A stretch of DNA of 32,263 bases, taken from positions 1-32,263 of the forward strand of contig CAIQEI010000019.1 in the NCBI GenBank assembly GCA_903870815.1, written 5' to 3'. This document shows positions 1,486 to 29,693 of this stretch, one piece after another; position 1 is the stretch's first letter; every line of letters starts with the position of its first letter. The DNA is from an uncultured Verrucomicrobia subdivision 3 bacterium. GTDB taxonomy: Bacteria > Verrucomicrobiota > Verrucomicrobiia > Limisphaerales > UBA11358. Made by a program: the position numbers and the translations under genes. The notes below the pieces were generated by a model that was not told the origin of the DNA, searched no databases, and saw nothing but the letters and a program-made list of their open reading frames with translations.

Positions 1486-2220
1486 TTATTGAAAGAAGGT
1501 GAAACCCGGTGTCGGGGTTGACGTTGTGCCGTTGACAAAAGCGGTATTTGCCGTAGTCAGCGTGGCACCTTGCACGCTGCCGTCCGCCAACAGCAGATTG
1601 CCTGACCCTTGGTGCATATCATTTGCGGTCCAGGTCCAAAGCACAGCGGCAGAGTATGCTTTTCCAGCAACATATCTCGTAGTTGCGGCCTGAACTGAGG
1701 TGGCGGTGCCACCGCCTTGTCCGATGGAGTCATCGCCTGCCAAGATGGATTGCGGATAAGCATCGTTGGCATCACCGCCGACGAAATAGCTCACAGTAGA
1801 AGCACTAAAGACCGGATTCCCGGGGGCGGCCCAAGCGGTGGCGGGTTGGGTATGATTGTTATCCGAGGGGCACCAGACAACCTTGGGATTTTGCAACTGA
1901 TTTTTCATAGCCTGGAATAAAACGTCAATGGTAGTACCCGGTGCGGTGGCCCCGTGCTGCACGGCTTCTGAACCCCCACCATTGGCTGTCGATATTGCCA
2001 TGGGATATGAGTCACCATTATCACCCGCCCAGAGTTTCATGGAGAGGCCAACCTGCTTGAGGTTGCTGGTGCAGTTGATTTTCTGGGCCTTGCGCTTGGC
2101 GGCCGCGAGGGCGGGCAGCAGCATGGCCGCGAGAATCGCGATAATCGCGATGACGACGAGGAGTTCGATGAGGGTAAACGCTTTGAGCGCTTTTTTCGGT
2201 TGTAGTTTCATATTTTTCAT
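1486..2220 (-). CDS. Type II pseudopilin-like protein with H-X9-DG motif
   Basis: This 244-residue protein is exported and anchored as a type II secretion/type IV pilus pseudopilin. It starts with a short basic leader (about 14 residues, rich in Lys) followed by [20 protein letters not shown]. Prepilin peptidase would cut just before this Phe, with Ala at -1 instead of the usual Gly. Glu at +5 is kept. After the hydrophobic helix (to about residue 37) come the basic segment and the globular domain. Near the C-terminus [12 protein letters not shown] matches the H-X9-DG motif of a large family in Planctomycetes, Verrucomicrobia and Lentisphaerae. The gene is a single unit with its own promoter and terminator, far from the gspD/E block. 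Its exact role, as a secretion pseudopilus part or a separate surface protein, is unknown. Confidence 0.92.
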
Positions 2221-2247
2221 TTGGTTGTTTCCGGGGACAAGCGCGGG

Positions 2248-2275
2248 ATTTTAGACAAACTTGCGTCACTGTCAA
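2248..2275 (-). promoter_or_regulatory. Sigma-70-type promoter of the pseudopilin gene
   Basis: On the minus strand, TTGACA (2275-2270) is followed by a 16-base spacer and TAAAAT (2253-2248). The predicted start is near 2241, leaving a leader of about 20 bases before the ATG at 2220. The -35 box is a perfect match and the -10 box differs at one position. This is the best promoter in the window. Confidence 0.72.
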
Positions 2276-2374
2276 CACGGATGGTTGATTTACTTTAGCA
2301 ATGCCGGTGCCAAGTGGAAAACATCACCAAAGCCCAATGAATCCACCTTTTGATTTTCGCAACCGACCTTGGAT

Positions 2375-2411
2375 GCGTGAAATTCTCACGCCAAACGCGT
2401 GAGGTTCACGC
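2375..2411. promoter_or_regulatory. Two tandem palindromes GCGTGA..TCACGC, operator-like
   Basis: The first dyad is GCGTGA (2375-2380), AATTC, TCACGC (2386-2391). The second is GCGTGA (2397-2402), GGT, TCACGC (2406-2411). Their centres, 2383 and 2404, are 21 bases apart, about two helical turns, so two dimers would bind the same DNA face. They lie about 100-135 bases upstream of the pseudopilin -35 box and about 390 bases before the helix-turn-helix gene. The binding protein is not known. They could also form two small RNA hairpins. Confidence 0.5.
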
Positions 2412-2799
2412 AGGATGGGAAAGTTATTGGTTGAGGCAAGCAGTTGCCAGATCGGCGGCGCGCTCAACCGCAACTCCATTCTCATGCCGCCCGTTCGGGT
2501 TGGAGTTCAAGCTTTAGCTTGTCCCCCTGTTTATACCGCGTCTCAAATTTCAGCATTTCAGTCTGGGCATTTAAACCAAACTCGCTTATCGGCAGGCACG
2601 GCCCGCTCTCCGCGGTTAAGGATTTTCATGCATTACATTATTAACTCTTCAACAGAAAAAACGGCGCCGGATAAATTTTATTAAATAATGTATTTGACTT
2701 AGTTTATAGCTTTATACAGACTTTCGCCCGTCAGCCTCAGAGCCGGCCGCGGGCCGCAGGCCGGCGGAAATAATGGGGTAAATTAAAATTAGATTGCCT
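2412..2799. other. Intergenic region with hairpin and AT-rich stretch, no convincing gene
   Basis: No open frame here resembles a protein. An 89-codon frame (2415-2684) crosses the phrase TTGGAGTTCAAGCTTTAGC (around 2501-2520), which I recall as a dispersed intergenic repeat. An AT-rich stretch at 2636-2720 holds a near-palindrome (ACATTATTAA at 2636-2645, TTAAATAATGT near 2680-2690). A GC-rich hairpin follows: GCCGGCC (2742-2748) pairing with GGCCGGC (2759-2765). The AT-rich part may carry the promoter of the next gene, but I find no well-spaced -35/-10 pair. Confidence 0.4.
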
Positions 2800-3210
2800 A
2801 TGCACGACGACAATACCGTTCAACGTTTCATACAACTGCGCGCCAAAGGCTGGACCTATGAGCGGCTCATGACCGAACTCAACGTCTCCAAGCCCACGCT
2901 CATTGCTTGGTGCCGCAAACACCAGTTCCAGATCCAAAACCTCAAGGCTATCGAAATGGAAGCCCTGGGCGATAAGTGGCTGGACTCCGTCTCCGACCGC
3001 GTCGATGGCTTGGGCGGGCAGCTCCGTCTGGTCGAGGCGGAGATCCGTCAGCGGAGTGTAAGCGATCTTTCCACCGCGCAGCTTTATTCGTTGACCCATA
3101 GCCTGCGCCGGCAGATCGCTCAATGCACCAGCACCACCGGATTCACCATCCCCGTGTCGGAAATCCCGGCCGATGAATACCACGAGCAAGTCCAAGACGT
3201 GCGTTGCTGA
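2800..3210 (+). CDS. Small helix-turn-helix protein of unknown function
   Basis: This 136-residue protein starts at ATG 2800; a TTG two codons upstream is possible. Residues about 4-36 form a likely helix-turn-helix: RAKGWTYERLMTELNVSKPT followed by LIAWCRKH. It resembles the small DNA-binding domains found beside resolvases and phage terminase small subunits. The middle (residues about 47-105) is charged and probably helical. The C-terminal part (FTIPVSEIPADEY) has no motif that I can name. Base composition is like that of its neighbours. It stands alone on the plus strand with repeats on both sides and no close partner. It could be a regulator or a left-over of a mobile element; the sequence does not decide. 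Confidence 0.65.
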   Translation: MHDDNTVQRFIQLRAKGWTYERLMTELNVSKPTLIAWCRKHQFQIQNLKAIEMEALGDKWLDSVSDRVDGLGGQLRLVEAEIRQRSVSDLSTAQLYSLTHSLRRQIAQCTSTTGFTIPVSEIPADEYHEQVQDVRC

Positions 3211-3261: not shown

Positions 3262-3512
3262 AAATAATATTTAGTGGCCGCCGACGTGAGTCGGCTCAAT
3301 TAAATGAATAGCACATCAGGGGTAGGGCGTTTAGTCCTCTGCCCCGCCGGTCTTTGCCGCCGGCCACCATTGCCAACCAACGTGATTTTGATTCGCCATG
3401 GCGTCCTGCACGGAGCATTGCGCCCTGCCTGAACTCCTTGCACAGGCCAACCGGTTTAGCCGAGCCTTCAGCATTGATTTCTGCGCGCCAATGCCGAACA
3501 CTGGCCAGCCCT
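3262..3512. other. Leader region of glyQS with small hairpin, no gene seen
   Basis: A perfect stem GCCGAC-GTGA-GTCGGC lies at 3280-3295, inside a phrase (GTGGCCGCCGACGTGAGTCGG) of dispersed-repeat character. The rest stays open in the glyQS frame up to 3354, but the translation there has no family resemblance, so I treat it as leader. I find no T-box core motif or other recognisable riboswitch. Confidence 0.4.
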
Positions 3513-5147
3513 ATGGCCGAACCTAAAGAGAATTTGCAGATGGAAAAAATTGTGTCGCTGTGCAAACGGCGCGGGTTCATTTTCCAGTCGTCGGAGATAT
3601 ACGGCGGCCTGAACGGTTTCTGGGACTACGGCCCGCTGGGCGCGGAGCTCAAGCGGAACGTCAAGGAGCTTTGGTGGAACACCATGACGCGCCAGCGCGA
3701 CGACGTGGCGGGCCTGGAGGCGACCATCATCATGTCGCCGGAGATCTGGAAGGCCAGCGGGCACGTGGCGACGTTCAGCGATCCGATGATTGACTGCAAA
3801 ACGTGCAAAGGCCGGTTCCGGGCGGATCAGATTTCGGAAATTCCCTGCCCGCAGAAGCCGAGCCGGATGGTCAACGAGTGCGCGGGCGAGAAAACCGAAG
3901 CGCGTCCGTTCAACCTGATGTTCAAGACGCACACCGGGCCGCTGGAATCGGATGAAAACATCGCGTATCTCCGCCCGGAAACCGCGCAGGCGATTTTCGC
4001 GCAGTTCAAGAACGTGCTGGAAACGGCGCGACAGAAGGTGCCGTTCGGCATTGCGCAGGTCGGCAAGGCGTTCCGCAACGAGGTGACGCCGCGCAACTTC
4101 ACCTTCCGCTCGCGCGAGTTCGAGCAGATGGAGCTGGAATTTTTCATCAAGCCGGATGAGGTGATTCAGGCGATTCATGGTTCGGTGGCGACGATTTCTG
4201 AAAATCCGCAATCCGCAATCCGCAATCCGCAATCAAATTGGGGCTGGCAGGCGTGGCACCAATACTGGGTCGAGGAACGCGTGCGCTTTTACGAGGGCAT
4301 CGGGCTGGCGCGCGCGACGCTGGGCTTTCATCACCAGACGCCGGCGGAACTGGCGCATTACGCGCGGGCCTGCACGGATATCCTGTTCAAGTTCCCGTTC
4401 AGCAAAAAGGACGAGGCGGGCAACGCGGCCGGCGACGAACTGGAAGGCATCGCCGCCCGCAGCGATTTTGACCTGAGCCAGCATCAGCGCTTCTCCGGCA
4501 AGCCGATGGGCGTATTCGACGAGGAACTGCGCGCCGCGTGGGCCAAGCTGCCGAAGGAAAAACAGGATGACCTGTGGAAGCGGTATTACGAGCATCGCAA
4601 AAATTATCTGACGAAATCCGCCAAGCCGGACGAAACGCCGGAGCAAATCTCGCAGCAGGCGACAGAGGACGCGAACGGGCTGGCGAAGGGCCAATACCTC
4701 CCACACGTGATTGAACCGAGCGCGGGCGTGGACCGGCTGATCCTCGCGCTCATCGCCAACGCGTATTCCGAAGTGACCAAGACGGACGACAAGGGCAAAA
4801 GCGAGACGACGGTGGTGATGAAGTTCCATCCGCGCGTTGCGCCGGTCAAGGTCGGGGTATTTCCGCTGCTGAAAAACAAGCCGGAACTGGTGGCCAAAGC
4901 GCAGGCGATTTATGAACTGCTGCGGCCGCACCTGAAGACGGTTTACGATGACGGCGGCTCCATCGGCAAACGCTATGCGCGCCAGGATGAGGCCGGCACG
5001 CCGTTTTGCGTGACGATTGATTTTGACACGCTCGGCGAAAAGCCCGAGCTGCTCGACACCGTGACGGTCCGCCACCGCGACGACGGGAAACAGGAACGGC
5101 TGAAAATTTCCGAACTGTTGGAGTTTTTGCTGTCAAAGATTCGTTGA
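3513..5147 (+). CDS. glyQS: Glycyl-tRNA synthetase, single-chain homodimeric type
   Basis: This class II enzyme attaches glycine to tRNA-Gly. It is the one-chain type (as in Thermus and eukaryotes), not the alpha/beta type. From ATG 3513 it has 544 residues. The N-terminus (CKRRGFIFQSSEIYGGLNG) is characteristic. Motif 2 FRNE lies at residues 187-190, followed by FTFRSREFEQMELEFF. The motif 3 region is VIEPSAGVDR, and the C-terminal anticodon-binding domain starts around HPRVAPVKVGVFPL. Oddity: residues 230-242 (ENPQSAIRNPQSN) are encoded by a 7-bp tandem repeat. ATG 3540 (MEKIVSLC) is an alternative start with a better-placed AAAGAG upstream; the open frame reaches back to 3354. The stop overlaps the start of the next gene. 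Confidence 0.95.
   Translation: MAEPKENLQMEKIVSLCKRRGFIFQSSEIYGGLNGFWDYGPLGAELKRNVKELWWNTMTRQRDDVAGLEATIIMSPEIWKASGHVATFSDPMIDCKTCKGRFRADQISEIPCPQKPSRMVNECAGEKTEARPFNLMFKTHTGPLESDENIAYLRPETAQAIFAQFKNVLETARQKVPFGIAQVGKAFRNEVTPRNFTFRSREFEQMELEFFIKPDEVIQAIHGSVATISENPQSAIRNPQSNWGWQAWHQYWVEERVRFYEGIGLARATLGFHHQTPAELAHYARACTDILFKFPFSKKDEAGNAAGDELEGIAARSDFDLSQHQRFSGKPMGVFDEELRAAWAKLPKEKQDDLWKRYYEHRKNYLTKSAKPDETPEQISQQATEDANGLAKGQYLPHVIEPSAGVDRLILALIANAYSEVTKTDDKGKSETTVVMKFHPRVAPVKVGVFPLLKNKPELVAKAQAIYELLRPHLKTVYDDGGSIGKRYARQDEAGTPFCVTIDFDTLGEKPELLDTVTVRHRDDGKQERLKISELLEFLLSKIR
4203..4234 (+). repeat. Tandem 7-bp repeat (AATCCGC x4) inside glyQS
   Basis: Four exact copies of AATCCGC (4203-4230) are followed by AATC (4231-4234). 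The tract is translated in frame as part of ENPQSAIRNPQSN. It lies between the motif 2 region and the conserved W-H-Q-Y-W-V-E-E-R segment, where compact GlyRS proteins have only a short surface loop. This repeat phrase is otherwise typical of intergenic DNA. Confidence 0.9.
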
Positions 5148-26383: not shown

Positions 26384-27037
26384 CTAAGAACAACGAGGCA
26401 GCTTCTCCAGCGCGGCAAACAACTTCTCTGCCGAGGCCAGATGCTTCTGCGCGGCAGCTGAAACCAGGTGGAATCCCTTGCCGTAAGCCGGGCCGTTCGC
26501 CACGCAGTGATCGGTCGCGCAATCCGCGAGCTGTTTTTCCGCCGCGCATAACACGCTCGCGCGGGTGCCGTCCGCTTCAAATTTCCAGCCGATGATCTTT
26601 GCCTGCGGAAACCAGCCGCGCAGTTCTGCGATGATTTTCGGTGTCGGCACCAGCTCAACGAACAGGTTGCCCTGGCGCGTAGAAATTTTATTGGCCGCCT
26701 TGAGCGCGGTGAACTCGCCGGGTTTCTTTTCCGAGTAGATTTGGCCAAACGCAAAATCACTCACCGCCGCCGCGTGAAAAATGGCGTCCACCTTTTTGCC
26801 GGAAAACGCCTTCAGCCTGGCGCGCAAATCCGCCGTGGTGGAAAACATTTTCACCGACTGCGCCCGCCGTTGGCCCGCGTAAGTTGCGGTTTCGCCGATG
26901 AGCAGCGTCACGCGATGGCCGCGCGCGGCGAGAAAATTGGCGAGTTCCGTGCCCAGCCGGCCCGTGGAAAAATTCGTGAGCCGGCGCACGTCGTCCAGCG
27001 GCTCAAAGGTGGGCCCGGCAGTGACGATGCAGTTCAT
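26384..27037 (-). CDS. coaB: Stand-alone phosphopantothenoylcysteine synthetase CoaB
   Basis: CoaB joins 4'-phosphopantothenate and cysteine in coenzyme A synthesis. In most bacteria it is fused behind CoaC in CoaBC (about 400 residues). Here only the CoaB part is present, as 217 residues. It starts directly with NCIVTAGPTFEPLDDVRRL; the TNFSTGRLG segment carries the Asn that anchors the acyl-cytidylate intermediate in CoaBC. HAAAVSDF and the Lys-containing LKAANKIST region follow as expected, then IGWKFEAD. No CoaC flavin domain lies next to it; CoaC is presumably encoded elsewhere. Its ATG is 9 bases after the thrS stop, so the two form an operon. The stop is TAG. Confidence 0.88.
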   Translation of the reverse strand: MNCIVTAGPTFEPLDDVRRLTNFSTGRLGTELANFLAARGHRVTLLIGETATYAGQRRAQSVKMFSTTADLRARLKAFSGKKVDAIFHAAAVSDFAFGQIYSEKKPGEFTALKAANKISTRQGNLFVELVPTPKIIAELRGWFPQAKIIGWKFEADGTRASVLCAAEKQLADCATDHCVANGPAYGKGFHLVSAAAQKHLASAEKLFAALEKLPRCS

Positions 27038-27046
27038 GCCGCGAGG

Positions 27047-29140
27047 TTAAGCCCGCCGTTCGCGGATCGCAGCCAAAATATCAGCCACGGCTTCGGCCTT
27101 CGGCTTGGAGCCGACATTGCCCTTGCCGTGCAGACGCACGCTGACCGCGCCAGCCTCCAGGTCACGACCGCCGATGACCAGCATCGTATGGACGCGCAGC
27201 TTTTCCGCTTCGGCGATCTTCGCCTTCATCGGGTCGCTGCCGTAATCGCCGGCCACGCGGACCCCCTGGGCGCGCAGTCCGTTCACAATGTCCTTGGCGT
27301 ATTGGATGAGCGGGGCGGACGCCGGATCGCCTTCCGCGCCGATGGTGATAACGCGCACCTGATCCGGCGCGAGCCAGAGCGGGAAGTTGCCCGCGTAATG
27401 CTCGATGAGGAAGCCGATGAACCGCTCGTGCGTACCGAGCGGCGCGCGATGAACGCAGAGCGGCGTCTTGTTAGAGTTGTCCTTGTCGCGGTAGGTCAGG
27501 CCGAACTTGGCGGGAACCGCGAAGTCCACCTGGTTCGTCGCGATGGTGAATTCGCGGCCGATGGCACTCCAAACCTGCACGTCAATCTTCGGCCCGTAGA
27601 ACGCCGCCTCGTTGGCGACCTCCACGAAGTTAATGCCGGATTCGATCAACACCTTGCGCACCATGTCCTCGGTTTTTTTCCACAGCTCCGGCTCGTTGAC
27701 GTATTTCTTGCCGAGCCCTTCCGCTGCGTGCGTGCTAAAGCGCATCTGGTATTTTTCGAGGCCGAAGATTTTGAAATACTTCAGATACATGTCGTTCACG
27801 GCGCGGAATTCGTCGGCGAACTGCTCCTCGGTGCAATAGATGTGGGCGTCGTTCATGTTGAGCGAACGCACGCGCATGAGGCCAAACAACTCGCCGCTCT
27901 GCTCGTAGCGATAGCAGGTGCCGTATTCCGCGAGGCGCAACGGCAAGTCGCGGTAACTGTGCGGTTCCGCCGCAAAAATACGGTGATGATGCGGACAGTT
28001 CATGGCTTTGAGATAATAACGTTCACCCAAGCCATCAATCTGAGCATCAAGTTGCTCAAAGCCCTCTTTATTCGATTTGTCTGCGGCATATGCAGCTGCG
28101 ATCGTCTCCAACTGACTCATCGCTCCAACTGAGTAACTTGAAGATTTCTTAAATTGTTCTAGAAAATGTTCAACATAACCCGGTTCAGTGCCACGCCGGA
28201 GATAAGACCGGAATTCAACAAGTTGATCTCTAACCTCTCGGTCTTTCTCCTCAAGCAGATTAATCGGCGGAAACATTGAGTCCGCGTAGTAAGGCAAGTG
28301 GCCGGAGGTCTTATACATTTTCTCCCGGGCCAGATGCGGCGTGCGGACGCGGACGTAGCCGGCGGCGAATTCGGTTTCCTTGGCCAGCTTCTCCAGTTCC
28401 TCGACGAGCACCGTGCCCTTGGGCAGCCATAGCGGCATGCCCGGCCCGACAAATTCCGTGTCGATCGCGAACAGCCCCATCTCCGCGCCGATCTTGCGAT
28501 GGTCGCGCTTCTTCGCTTCCTCCTGCATCTTCAGGAATTCGTCGAGTGAGGTCTTGTTCTTGAACGCCGTGCCGTAGATGCGCTGGAGCTGCGGGCCTTT
28601 TTCGTCGCCCTTGTAATACGCGGCGGCCACGCTGGTGAGCTTGAACGCGCCGATGTTGCCGGTGCGCATCACGTGCGGCCCGGCGCAGAGGTCAAGGAAA
28701 TCGCCGTTCTTGTAATAGGAAATCGGTTCGCCTTCGGGAATGGCTTCGAGATTGCCGATCTTTAATTTGCTCACATTGCCCGGCCGCCCGGCGAGCCCGC
28801 CCAACCGTCCGCTCTGCGCGTCGGCAATGGCCTGTTCGCGGGTGACGATGATTTTCTCGAACGGGTTGTTCGCCTTGATCTCTTTCTTCATCTCCGCCTC
28901 AATTTTCTCAAAATCCTCCGGCGATATGCGGTGTGGCAAGTCCACGTCGTAATAAAATCCGTTTTCAACCGGCGGCCCGGCGGCGAACTGCGCTTCCGGC
29001 CAGAGCCGCAGAATGGCGGTGGCCATGACGTGGGCGGCGGAATGGCGGATGCGCTCCAGCTCGGTCATCCTGGCGCGGTCGTCCAGGGTTTTGCGTTCGG
29101 GATCCGGAGCGGCGGGCACGGGTTGTGGTTCAGCAGACAT
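27047..29140 (-). CDS. thrS: Threonyl-tRNA synthetase with catalytic-domain insertion
   Basis: This class II enzyme charges tRNA-Thr and edits Ser-tRNA-Thr. The 697-residue protein lacks the usual N-terminal TGS domain and begins with the editing domain (about 25-220): His33 and His37 in HSAAHVMA, and Cys152 and His156 in DLCAGPH. The catalytic domain begins near residue 225. Zinc ligands are Cys382 (NCPHH), His433 (NDAHIYC) and His564 (CVHRAPLG). Motif 2 is around RLAEYGTCYRYEQSGELFGL, and the anticodon-binding domain is about 590-697. Oddity: residues 294-371, between MFPPI and GERYYLKAM, are an extra in-frame segment of lower GC than the rest. The start is ATG 29140 without a clear Shine-Dalgarno. 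coaB follows after 9 bases. Confidence 0.95.
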   Translation of the reverse strand: MSAEPQPVPAAPDPERKTLDDRARMTELERIRHSAAHVMATAILRLWPEAQFAAGPPVENGFYYDVDLPHRISPEDFEKIEAEMKKEIKANNPFEKIIVTREQAIADAQSGRLGGLAGRPGNVSKLKIGNLEAIPEGEPISYYKNGDFLDLCAGPHVMRTGNIGAFKLTSVAAAYYKGDEKGPQLQRIYGTAFKNKTSLDEFLKMQEEAKKRDHRKIGAEMGLFAIDTEFVGPGMPLWLPKGTVLVEELEKLAKETEFAAGYVRVRTPHLAREKMYKTSGHLPYYADSMFPPINLLEEKDREVRDQLVEFRSYLRRGTEPGYVEHFLEQFKKSSSYSVGAMSQLETIAAAYAADKSNKEGFEQLDAQIDGLGERYYLKAMNCPHHHRIFAAEPHSYRDLPLRLAEYGTCYRYEQSGELFGLMRVRSLNMNDAHIYCTEEQFADEFRAVNDMYLKYFKIFGLEKYQMRFSTHAAEGLGKKYVNEPELWKKTEDMVRKVLIESGINFVEVANEAAFYGPKIDVQVWSAIGREFTIATNQVDFAVPAKFGLTYRDKDNSNKTPLCVHRAPLGTHERFIGFLIEHYAGNFPLWLAPDQVRVITIGAEGDPASAPLIQYAKDIVNGLRAQGVRVAGDYGSDPMKAKIAEAEKLRVHTMLVIGGRDLEAGAVSVRLHGKGNVGSKPKAEAVADILAAIRERRA
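28028..28261 (-). other. Low-GC in-frame insertion within thrS (about 78 codons)
   Basis: By hand count, 108 of the 240 bases at 28021-28260 are G or C (45%), against 42 of 60 (70%) at 28321-28380 in the same gene. The segment encodes residues 294-371: a charged helical run (NLLEEKDREVRDQLVEFRSY), then GYVEHFLEQFKKSSS, then ETIAAAYAADKSNKEGFEQL. Ordinary ThrRS has only a few residues here, between the MF of the substrate-side loop and the Y-x-L-K-x-M-N-C-P zinc segment. It has no intein splice residues (no Cys/Ser start, no terminal HN) and no stop codon. Confidence 0.8.
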
Positions 29141-29151
29141 GCAACCAGTTT

Positions 29152-29180
29152 AGCCACAGAGCCACAGAGGGCACAGAGAA
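29152..29180. repeat. CACAGAG repeat phrase upstream of thrS
   Basis: The unit CCACAGAG occurs twice and GCACAGAG once in direct succession just before the thrS start. I recall this phrase (AGCCACAGAG...) as a short dispersed repeat in many environmental genomes. Only this copy is in the window. It may lie in the thrS leader. Confidence 0.6.
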
Positions 29181-29234
29181 AAATTGAGTGGAAACCGATT
29201 CAGGGTTGCCCAGCGGCAACAATTCAGCGGTGCC

Positions 29235-29693
29235 TCACCCGCGCAGACGCGCTTGGAGATCGTAAACCTGCTGCATCACGTGGAAGCTGATGGCAATGGG
29301 CTGCGGGACGGCTCTGCGGGCGACGGCGCGGGATTTGGGCGGGCGGGAAGCCAACGATTCGCGGATTTTTTCCAGCTCGCCATGGTCGAGCCAGATGCCC
29401 CGGCACTGGGGGCAGCAATCCATGACGACGCCCGAGCCGAGGCTGTAGAGCTTTTTCTCCAAGGTGACCGCCTCGCATTTTGGACAACCACGGACATCGT
29501 CATCATGCACGCGCACGGCCGGGTCGTGGCGGAGACTGGCAATGCTGGCGTCGGGGTCGGGATGCTCGCGGTTCACGCGGGCGAGTTCGCGATGGTCGAA
29601 CCAGATGCCGCCGCAGCCGCCATCGCAGCCGTCAAGCGTGACGGTGCCGGCTTTGAAGCGGCGCAACGGACGCAGGCAAGCGGGGCAGTGCAT
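29235..29693 (-). CDS. Protein with two zf-TFIIB-type zinc ribbons
   Basis: This 152-residue protein has two copies of the zf-TFIIB zinc ribbon. The first is at about residues 1-40 (MHCPACLRPL with CDGGCGGIWFDHREL). The second is at about 68-112 (GCPKCEAVTL with CCPQCRGIWLDHGELEKI). Each has a CPxC pair and a second Cys pair before G-I-W-x-D-H-x-E-L, the family hallmark. The C-terminal 40 residues are basic and without motif. Proteins of this kind are common, usually with one ribbon, and of unknown role; zinc binding is very likely. It is codirectional with the MFS gene upstream and thrS downstream, with repeat phrases in both gaps. No signal peptide or membrane helix is seen. Confidence 0.82.
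   Translation of the reverse strand: MHCPACLRPLRRFKAGTVTLDGCDGGCGGIWFDHRELARVNREHPDPDASIASLRHDPAVRVHDDDVRGCPKCEAVTLEKKLYSLGSGVVMDCCPQCRGIWLDHGELEKIRESLASRPPKSRAVARRAVPQPIAISFHVMQQVYDLQARLRG

Follow-up and report, generated by a model that had tools for sequence, protein, structure and literature searches.

The window, i.e., the whole analysed stretch of 32,263 nucleotides from an uncultured bacterium of Verrucomicrobia subdivision 3, carries on its minus strand (27047–29140) a thrS gene encoding a threonine–tRNA ligase (ThrRS) of 697 amino acids. The protein scored 556 bits against TIGR00418, passing the curated cut-off of 384, and matched PF00587, PF07973, and PF03129; core, editing, and anticodon domains were recognised with the Pfam and NCBIfam profiles, and the Pfam search gave no match to a TGS domain. 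It was the single thrS copy found in its genome, in which a second, weak match reads as a prolyl-tRNA synthetase. When this ThrRS was compared with that of the relative L003 (L numbers denote relatives' loci and G numbers relatives' genomes), a mosaic pattern was observed: windows of the core from 212 on were mostly 96–100% identical outside the insert described below, and the anticodon domain (27047–27350, minus strand; residues about 597–697) was 56–84% identical in 25-residue windows.

Between the MFPP and YYLKAMNCPHH segments of the enzyme, an open, in-frame insert of 82 codons was found (residues 293–374; 28019–28264, minus strand), at a position where only a few residues are present in the aligned ThrRS of Staphylococcus aureus, as had been supposed for ordinary ThrRS. 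The original prediction, made from the sequence alone, of a low-GC in-frame insertion in the catalytic core thus held, although the extent proposed for it, about 78 codons at 28028–28261, lies within the insert and stops short of both its ends. The first six residues, INLLEE (28247–28264, minus strand), and the last few match a linker pattern common to relatives, with the consensus M-E-L-x-E-E at the upstream boundary and, at the downstream boundary (last six residues; 28019–28036, minus strand), an E-R end that runs into YYLKAMNCPHH. The added part therefore amounts to about 70 codons, and this variable core (about residues 299–368; 28037–28246, minus strand) was without BLAST-level similarity to the other inserts compared. 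C382 (codon at 27995–27997, minus strand), H433, and H564, which we take to be the zinc positions, and H33, H37, C152, and H156, presumably the editing positions, were invariant over 42 aligned ThrRS, in agreement with the claim that these residues are intact.

The GC content of the insert was 0.443 versus 0.607 in the other thrS sequence and 0.606 in the whole window, and at fourfold-degenerate sites it was 0.33 (36 sites) versus 0.91 in the flanks (262 sites). Windows of 246 nt as low in GC as the insert numbered 140 of 32,017 and fell in the bins 0–500, 2000–3000, and 27500–28500. The value of about 70% first given for the upstream sequence was reached in one 120-nt window (28960–29079; 0.708), whereas the part of thrS upstream of the insert averages 0.612.

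Four helices were predicted for the insert in both AlphaFold2 runs, one with the whole protein (42 sequences) and one with residues 286–384 alone, which is in line with the charged helical module that had been proposed. In the full-length run the pLDDT of the insert was mostly 70–83, and the model was poor in the core (mean pLDDT 68, pTM 0.37), so that the placement of the insert relative to the rest relies on the known class II synthetase fold. The insert would correspond to the turn between the predicted strands 293–295 and 373–377, just before the zinc-ligand segment, and we infer that it protrudes as a helical fold.

The origin of the insert was sought in several collections. The insert alone, searched by profile as had been suggested, gave no significant match in Pfam or NCBIfam, nor did it in the PDB, and no match was obtained among phages and plasmids (tblastn, E ≤ 1) or viral contigs. 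Weak matches to ATG17_like (E 0.048), ParR (0.053), and a LacI-family chain (0.64) were treated as chance, as were congener matches at E 0.086–0.5; Foldseek with a model of the insert fragment returned no solved structure below E 0.49. When 61 inserts of the site were compared with Pfam and PHROGs, no common family was found, only single-member matches at E 0.001–0.009. Inteins have a HINT domain and a size above about 130 aa, and an intein was rejected for this 82-aa insert without a HINT-type match in Pfam or NCBIfam; a self-splicing intron was likewise rejected, the region 26900–29400 giving no Rfam match at E ≤ 1 and the frame being open. Both outcomes agree with the earlier impression that intein and intron features are absent. 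A shufflon was discarded, no second place with thrS flanks being present in the genome.

Variation at the insertion site among relatives

Each of the 59 genomes searched as relatives, the source genome of the window among them, gave matches to thrS, and many of these were interrupted at the insert site. A named collection, made up of the best 80 of at least 577 related stretches from Verrucomicrobia subdivision 3 and its neighbours, comprised 69 loci with thrS fused in frame, 6 split with both halves, and 5 with the C half only. Among the 75 named loci holding both thrS parts, every one with a gap below 1 kb (33–723 nt) was open and in frame (69/69); these loci provide the fair test, the openness of the pooled fused genes being a matter of their selection. 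By chance, about 4 of 61 inserts would be expected to be open at their own base composition. It could be suspected that an assembly or binning artefact lies behind the insert, the genomes being largely draft or metagenome-assembled; such an origin is extremely improbable, as many independent assemblies show an open frame at this site and the tails of split genes, presented below, recur with different cargo.

Fused genes with identical first 200 C-part residues were merged, which reduced 92 genes to 82 and later, with L005 and L016, 96 to 84. The 84-gene set includes the FYLKAM genes L005 (= L042 = L059) and L016 and leaves out L118, which has a short linker; L001, L002, L023, and L032 were also left out of the fused-gene set. 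The 82-gene set, without L005, L016, and L118, was used for the third-position pair test, the end-column test, the chance-open estimate, and the pair identities of flanks and inserts. The linker measured less than 35 residues in 17 of the 84 unique fused genes, 40–150 residues in 63, and 217–244 residues in 4. On our reading, the linkers of L062 and L103 look repeat-derived.

All four of the longest inserts presented the HxH transposase motif, and the two that were scanned, L057 and L096, were matched by the PF01797 profile (Y1 transposase family) along about 90 of its 121 positions. In L057, L096, L038 (= L112), and L125, a transposase-like frame is thus seen fused within the ThrRS catalytic core, and on the gene tree, in which three of these four genes are present, such inserts had at least two origins. 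REP-associated or IS200-like Y1 transposases are in this way represented in frame at the site in L057 and L096, whereas the window insert lacks a Y1_Tnp domain and was not considered an insertion of that kind. These in-frame pieces (4 of 84), together with the linkers of L062 and L103, would suit a selfish repeat of the MITE or Rickettsia-palindromic-element type. Against that origin, a single copy of the window insert is present in its genome, its inverted-repeat pairs measure only 10–12 nt with none joining the two insert ends, and no relative of it was found at E ≤ 0.001 in 48 congeners; the idea is accordingly held to be very improbable. Rickettsia palindromic elements are in-frame repeats of about 150 bp inside protein genes (PMC10969869). 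They are likewise in-frame additions of broadly similar size within housekeeping genes; however, they form repeated, related families with palindromes in many genes, whereas the window insert has no second copy in its genome and most inserts found at this position have no relationship to one another.

The phylum was sampled with 115 genomes of at least 90% completeness. Among the matches listed, most of those from outside the order had a short gap at the site; about 50 codons were present in G266 and G210, and L177, from another part of the class, held a 94-codon segment at the same thrS site. Of the phylum-sample loci L177–L205, only L177 and L182 (14 codons) could be parsed at the site. Because G266, G210, and L177 carry them, longer inserts are not restricted to the order.

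The extent of variation was most evident between close relatives. The flanks of the window gene and L003 were 95.4% and 99.4% identical, while the inserts were 21% identical and gave no BLAST match, and no relative of the window insert was found at E ≤ 0.001 in the other 145 genomes of the order sample. Related inserts occurred in 7 of the 63 pairs with flank identity of at least 95% (84-gene set), the median insert identity being 0.25. Flank third positions were at least 0.8 identical in 25 pairs, and for 21 of these the insert DNA identity lay within the 95% limit of shuffled sequences; among the 13 closest pairs, L003–L037 and L037 with the window gene were the two that exceeded it. Since the inserts diverge more than third positions do, replacement or independent gain, and not drift, would account for them, and in most close pairs replacement is strongly indicated by these comparisons. 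It is not universal, because in two clades (L069 with its relatives; L109, L113, and L131) one insert is conserved at near-normal GC. L007 and L008, with flanks 98% identical, have inserts related at 60%, and weak BLAST links join inserts in several other pairs. The window insert belongs with the in-frame additions between MFPP and YYLKAMNCP that are unrelated to those of near relatives.

The conserved clades, the L007/L008 pair, the weak links, and the first and last six insert residues common to relatives could also be read as remains of an old, order-wide helical hairpin with little function that evolved very fast without any block replacement. Neutral drift would not, however, leave insert DNA no more alike than shuffled sequence in 21 of 25 close pairs, the dN/dS of shared inserts (0.06–0.25, see below) is not near 1, and private inserts have a foreign-like GC at fourfold sites, so that a hairpin of this kind is regarded as unlikely. 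From the sequences compared, hypervariability of the site extends over the order: most inserts are unrelated to one another, some genes hold a transposase-like piece in frame, and others are split. The suggestion of a recently gained domain fits this genome, but a single unusual domain confined to one species does not describe what was found. Nor was one segment of normal GC common to the close relatives, which would have made it an old lineage trait: near relatives have different segments, and 60 of the 63 long inserts had a third-position GC lower than that of their flanks.

The GlyRS gene of the same window (3354–5147, plus strand) served as a control. Variation at an insertion site was seen there too, but among its long inserts 24 of 45 pairs were BLAST-linked (10 long inserts among 19 parsed sequences), and because many long GlyRS inserts are still linked, its variation is milder than that of thrS. 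The GlyRS site lies after GHVxTF and measures 37–161 aa in relatives, the two longest inserts (L150 and L151) having low third-position GC. A loop of the same protein, EFFIKPDE...NWGWQAWHQY, presents repeat-like in-frame additions, here ENPQSAIRNPQS, and its length differs among relatives. Probable ProRS frames of relatives were mostly 572–602 aa, with two longer (661 and 694) and two short (321 and 267). Class II synthetases are known to have insertion domains, as between motifs 1 and 2 of GlyRS, which are inherited and homologous within a lineage. The thrS insert resembles them as an extra domain at a catalytic-core loop; it differs from them in that unrelated inserts are found in enzymes with nearly identical flanks.

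Probable acquisition and exchange of inserts, and constraint on shared inserts

For the base composition of the 63 long inserts, an insert without any BLAST link was termed private (37) and one with any link shared (26). Fourfold-site GC was lower than in the flanks in 36 of the 37 private inserts (0.54 versus 0.90). The third-position deficit was −0.29 in private and −0.16 in shared inserts (p 0.002), and when eight weakly linked inserts were counted as private instead, giving 44, p became 2.7e-6. Private inserts look foreign in their fourfold-site GC and look acquired, and the smaller deficit of shared inserts is what would be seen if amelioration had started in older inserts.

Shared inserts had a dN/dS of 0.06–0.25 in eight pairs, which partly overlap (three use L069) and several of which have a dS above 1; a ninth pair, L092–L119, was saturated. 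Judging from these ratios, shared inserts are under purifying selection, and their translation and constraint are supported by sequence comparison. In the end-column test, from which L008, L021, and 12 conserved-clade rows were excluded, the 47–49 hypervariable inserts showed clear conservation only over about six residues per end, with weak similarity just inside. Their composition was high in E, Q, S, and L and low in G, P, Y, and C.

Exchange was considered from three comparisons. L018 and L021 share an insert at 96% identity, with flanks at 86–87%; along the DNA, identity was 0.82–0.95 over windows 277–396 and 0.67–0.77 over windows 408–489, and it was high also at windows 169–253 (0.81–0.92). 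For the genome of L021, contamination is about 5%, and another, partial thrS is present in it. This insert probably travelled between genomes. Across 13 genes, codon identity at conserved residues was 0.50–0.55 just upstream of the insert (the last window overlapping it) and 0.62–0.66 just downstream, values that are suggestive only, because both thrS ends were equally low (0.55–0.69); it reached 0.77–0.86 in windows 149–209 and 0.74–0.80 in windows 402–462. Finally, third-position agreement near the site between the window gene and four genomes was 0.87–0.90 in thrS (144 codons) versus 0.60–0.71 in GlyRS (325–567 codons), which fits recombination between species, the stretches compared being unequally constrained. 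Recombination is thus a likely route of exchange, resting on one fairly clear case.

Split thrS genes and the sequences between their halves

In at least 14 other genomes, thrS was found as two genes cut at the insert site and bearing conserved tails; the count was 16, two of the ten named genomes being G056 and G008, and it is given as at least 14 to allow for further overlap. On our reading, both halves without an intact gene were present in 8 of the 59 genomes (G002, G005, G008, G012, G018, G027, G038, and G056), G002 and some other split cases being interrupted by contig ends. Among the named split candidates, 10 of 11 had both halves and no intact copy, and four had their halves on different contigs. 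The N halves of these four (G190–G193) end in a stop after a tail of the conserved type. The consensus of the N-half tail was MEMDEHRxxRxxIxxRIAELEKQL and the head of the C half ended in LxxLGEPE; we infer that the split halves dock by their tails. Synthetases made as two polypeptides are known from the LeuRS alpha-beta of Aquifex and the AlaRS of Nanoarchaeum. Split ThrRS is like them in this respect and differs in that the cut falls in the catalytic core, has a scattered distribution over the gene tree, and sometimes encloses defence genes. A limited literature search found no paper on such split ThrRS, on hypervariable ThrRS inserts, or on Verrucomicrobia synthetase inserts.

The stretch between the halves was read in nine loci (L033, L034, L035, L036, L039, L058, L063, L094, and L098), and three of them held methyltransferase or restriction genes: a methyltransferase with an AccI-like endonuclease in L033, a complete type II pair in L094, and a methyltransferase in L039. 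L036 carried a partial AbiGi match and a Y1 transposase; the other split loci gave no defence match except a weak PtuA in L058, in two scans of 10 proteins each, not all of them cargo. No integrase was noticed among the split-locus genes read. Some cargo genes were similarly low in GC, e.g., 0.39 and 0.42. Additional copies of thrS ends were found nearby in 9 of the best 80 of at least 577 loci, and because splits, cargo, and extra thrS ends cluster there, the thrS locus is seen to attract insertions. Two loci may be described in this context. In L041 (1–19501), an intact thrS is followed by five displaced thrS 3′ fragments alternating with other genes, several of them large and secreted-looking, as if cassettes had been integrated successively; in L035 (1400–5100), the N-half tail of thrS is repeated between the split halves.

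On a tree of the C half with 92 rows, the four states of the site (long, short, split, and transposase) needed 25 changes, and the starred branches forced at least 12 long, 9 short, 6 split, and 2 transposase; these counts are rough, the tree being that of a recombining gene with bootstrap not settled and with rows identical in residues 20–150 merged. L118 was set to short, L046 was dropped, and L087 is absent.

That split and fused forms, cargo, and duplicated thrS ends meet at the same turn, with the states interspersed on the tree and some cargo genes as low in GC as the inserts, raises another reading of the window insert, i.e., a scar of a former split, in which cargo entered, two proteins were made, the cargo was deleted, and the halves were fused again in frame with leftover low-GC DNA. 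However, the tails MEMDEHR... and ...LxxLGEPE are not recognisable by eye in the window insert, no fused gene was noticed with split-tail sequence around cargo remnants, and the inserts, rich in E, Q, and L and poor in G and P, are unlike random read-through. Such a scar would be a rather unlikely origin.

The thrS site as a probable place of module exchange

At a fixed site of ThrRS, the window insert is probably one allele of a protein module that can be exchanged. In the mechanism proposed, the turn before the zinc-ligand segment would accept, in subdivision-3 Verrucomicrobia, sequence-unrelated modules of helical composition, the two ends of which must be close together, so that the enzyme core would fold as usual and the module would protrude from the surface. 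The modules would come from low-GC DNA and be exchanged as whole blocks; in at least one case, recombination within the conserved thrS sequence flanking the insert is the probable route. Between replacements they would be kept as translated protein. The same turn would have taken up an in-frame transposase-like piece in four relatives, and it would also be the place where the gene was divided to give two proteins; their conserved tails look helical, and defence genes lie between the halves in some cases. The turn is apparently permissive, a module being swapped or the chain being cut without loss of the enzyme.

As for what drives the replacement, a recurrent conflict is favoured, in which a change of surface would allow ThrRS to escape something that binds or attacks it; this is the least certain part of the explanation. 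The dN/dS values reflect constraint and not site-by-site diversification, and therefore do not directly support conflict. Plain tolerance of insertions at a permissive turn is the alternative and is ranked second. A wider proposal can be put forward tentatively, as a possibility that falls well short of being the expected one: the site would be a polymorphic surface site of ThrRS, at which recombination passes unrelated helical modules from species to species and a long conflict with something that targets the enzyme maintains their diversity. Mobile defence genes would exploit the same turn: ThrRS would be split by them into two obligate subunits joined through dedicated helices, and the cargo would thereby be hard to lose.

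For annotation, the site is a warning that a split thrS may be called broken or its second half missed. It also offers natural examples of an enzyme core tolerating insertion and splitting, and a collection of two-part ThrRS enzymes whose conserved tails may dock. Slow variation is expected of an essential enzyme, yet one turn of a tRNA synthetase seems here to be exchanged wholesale between species whose enzymes are nearly identical around it; in these bacteria, the site may therefore serve as a lead to whatever selects for ThrRS variation.
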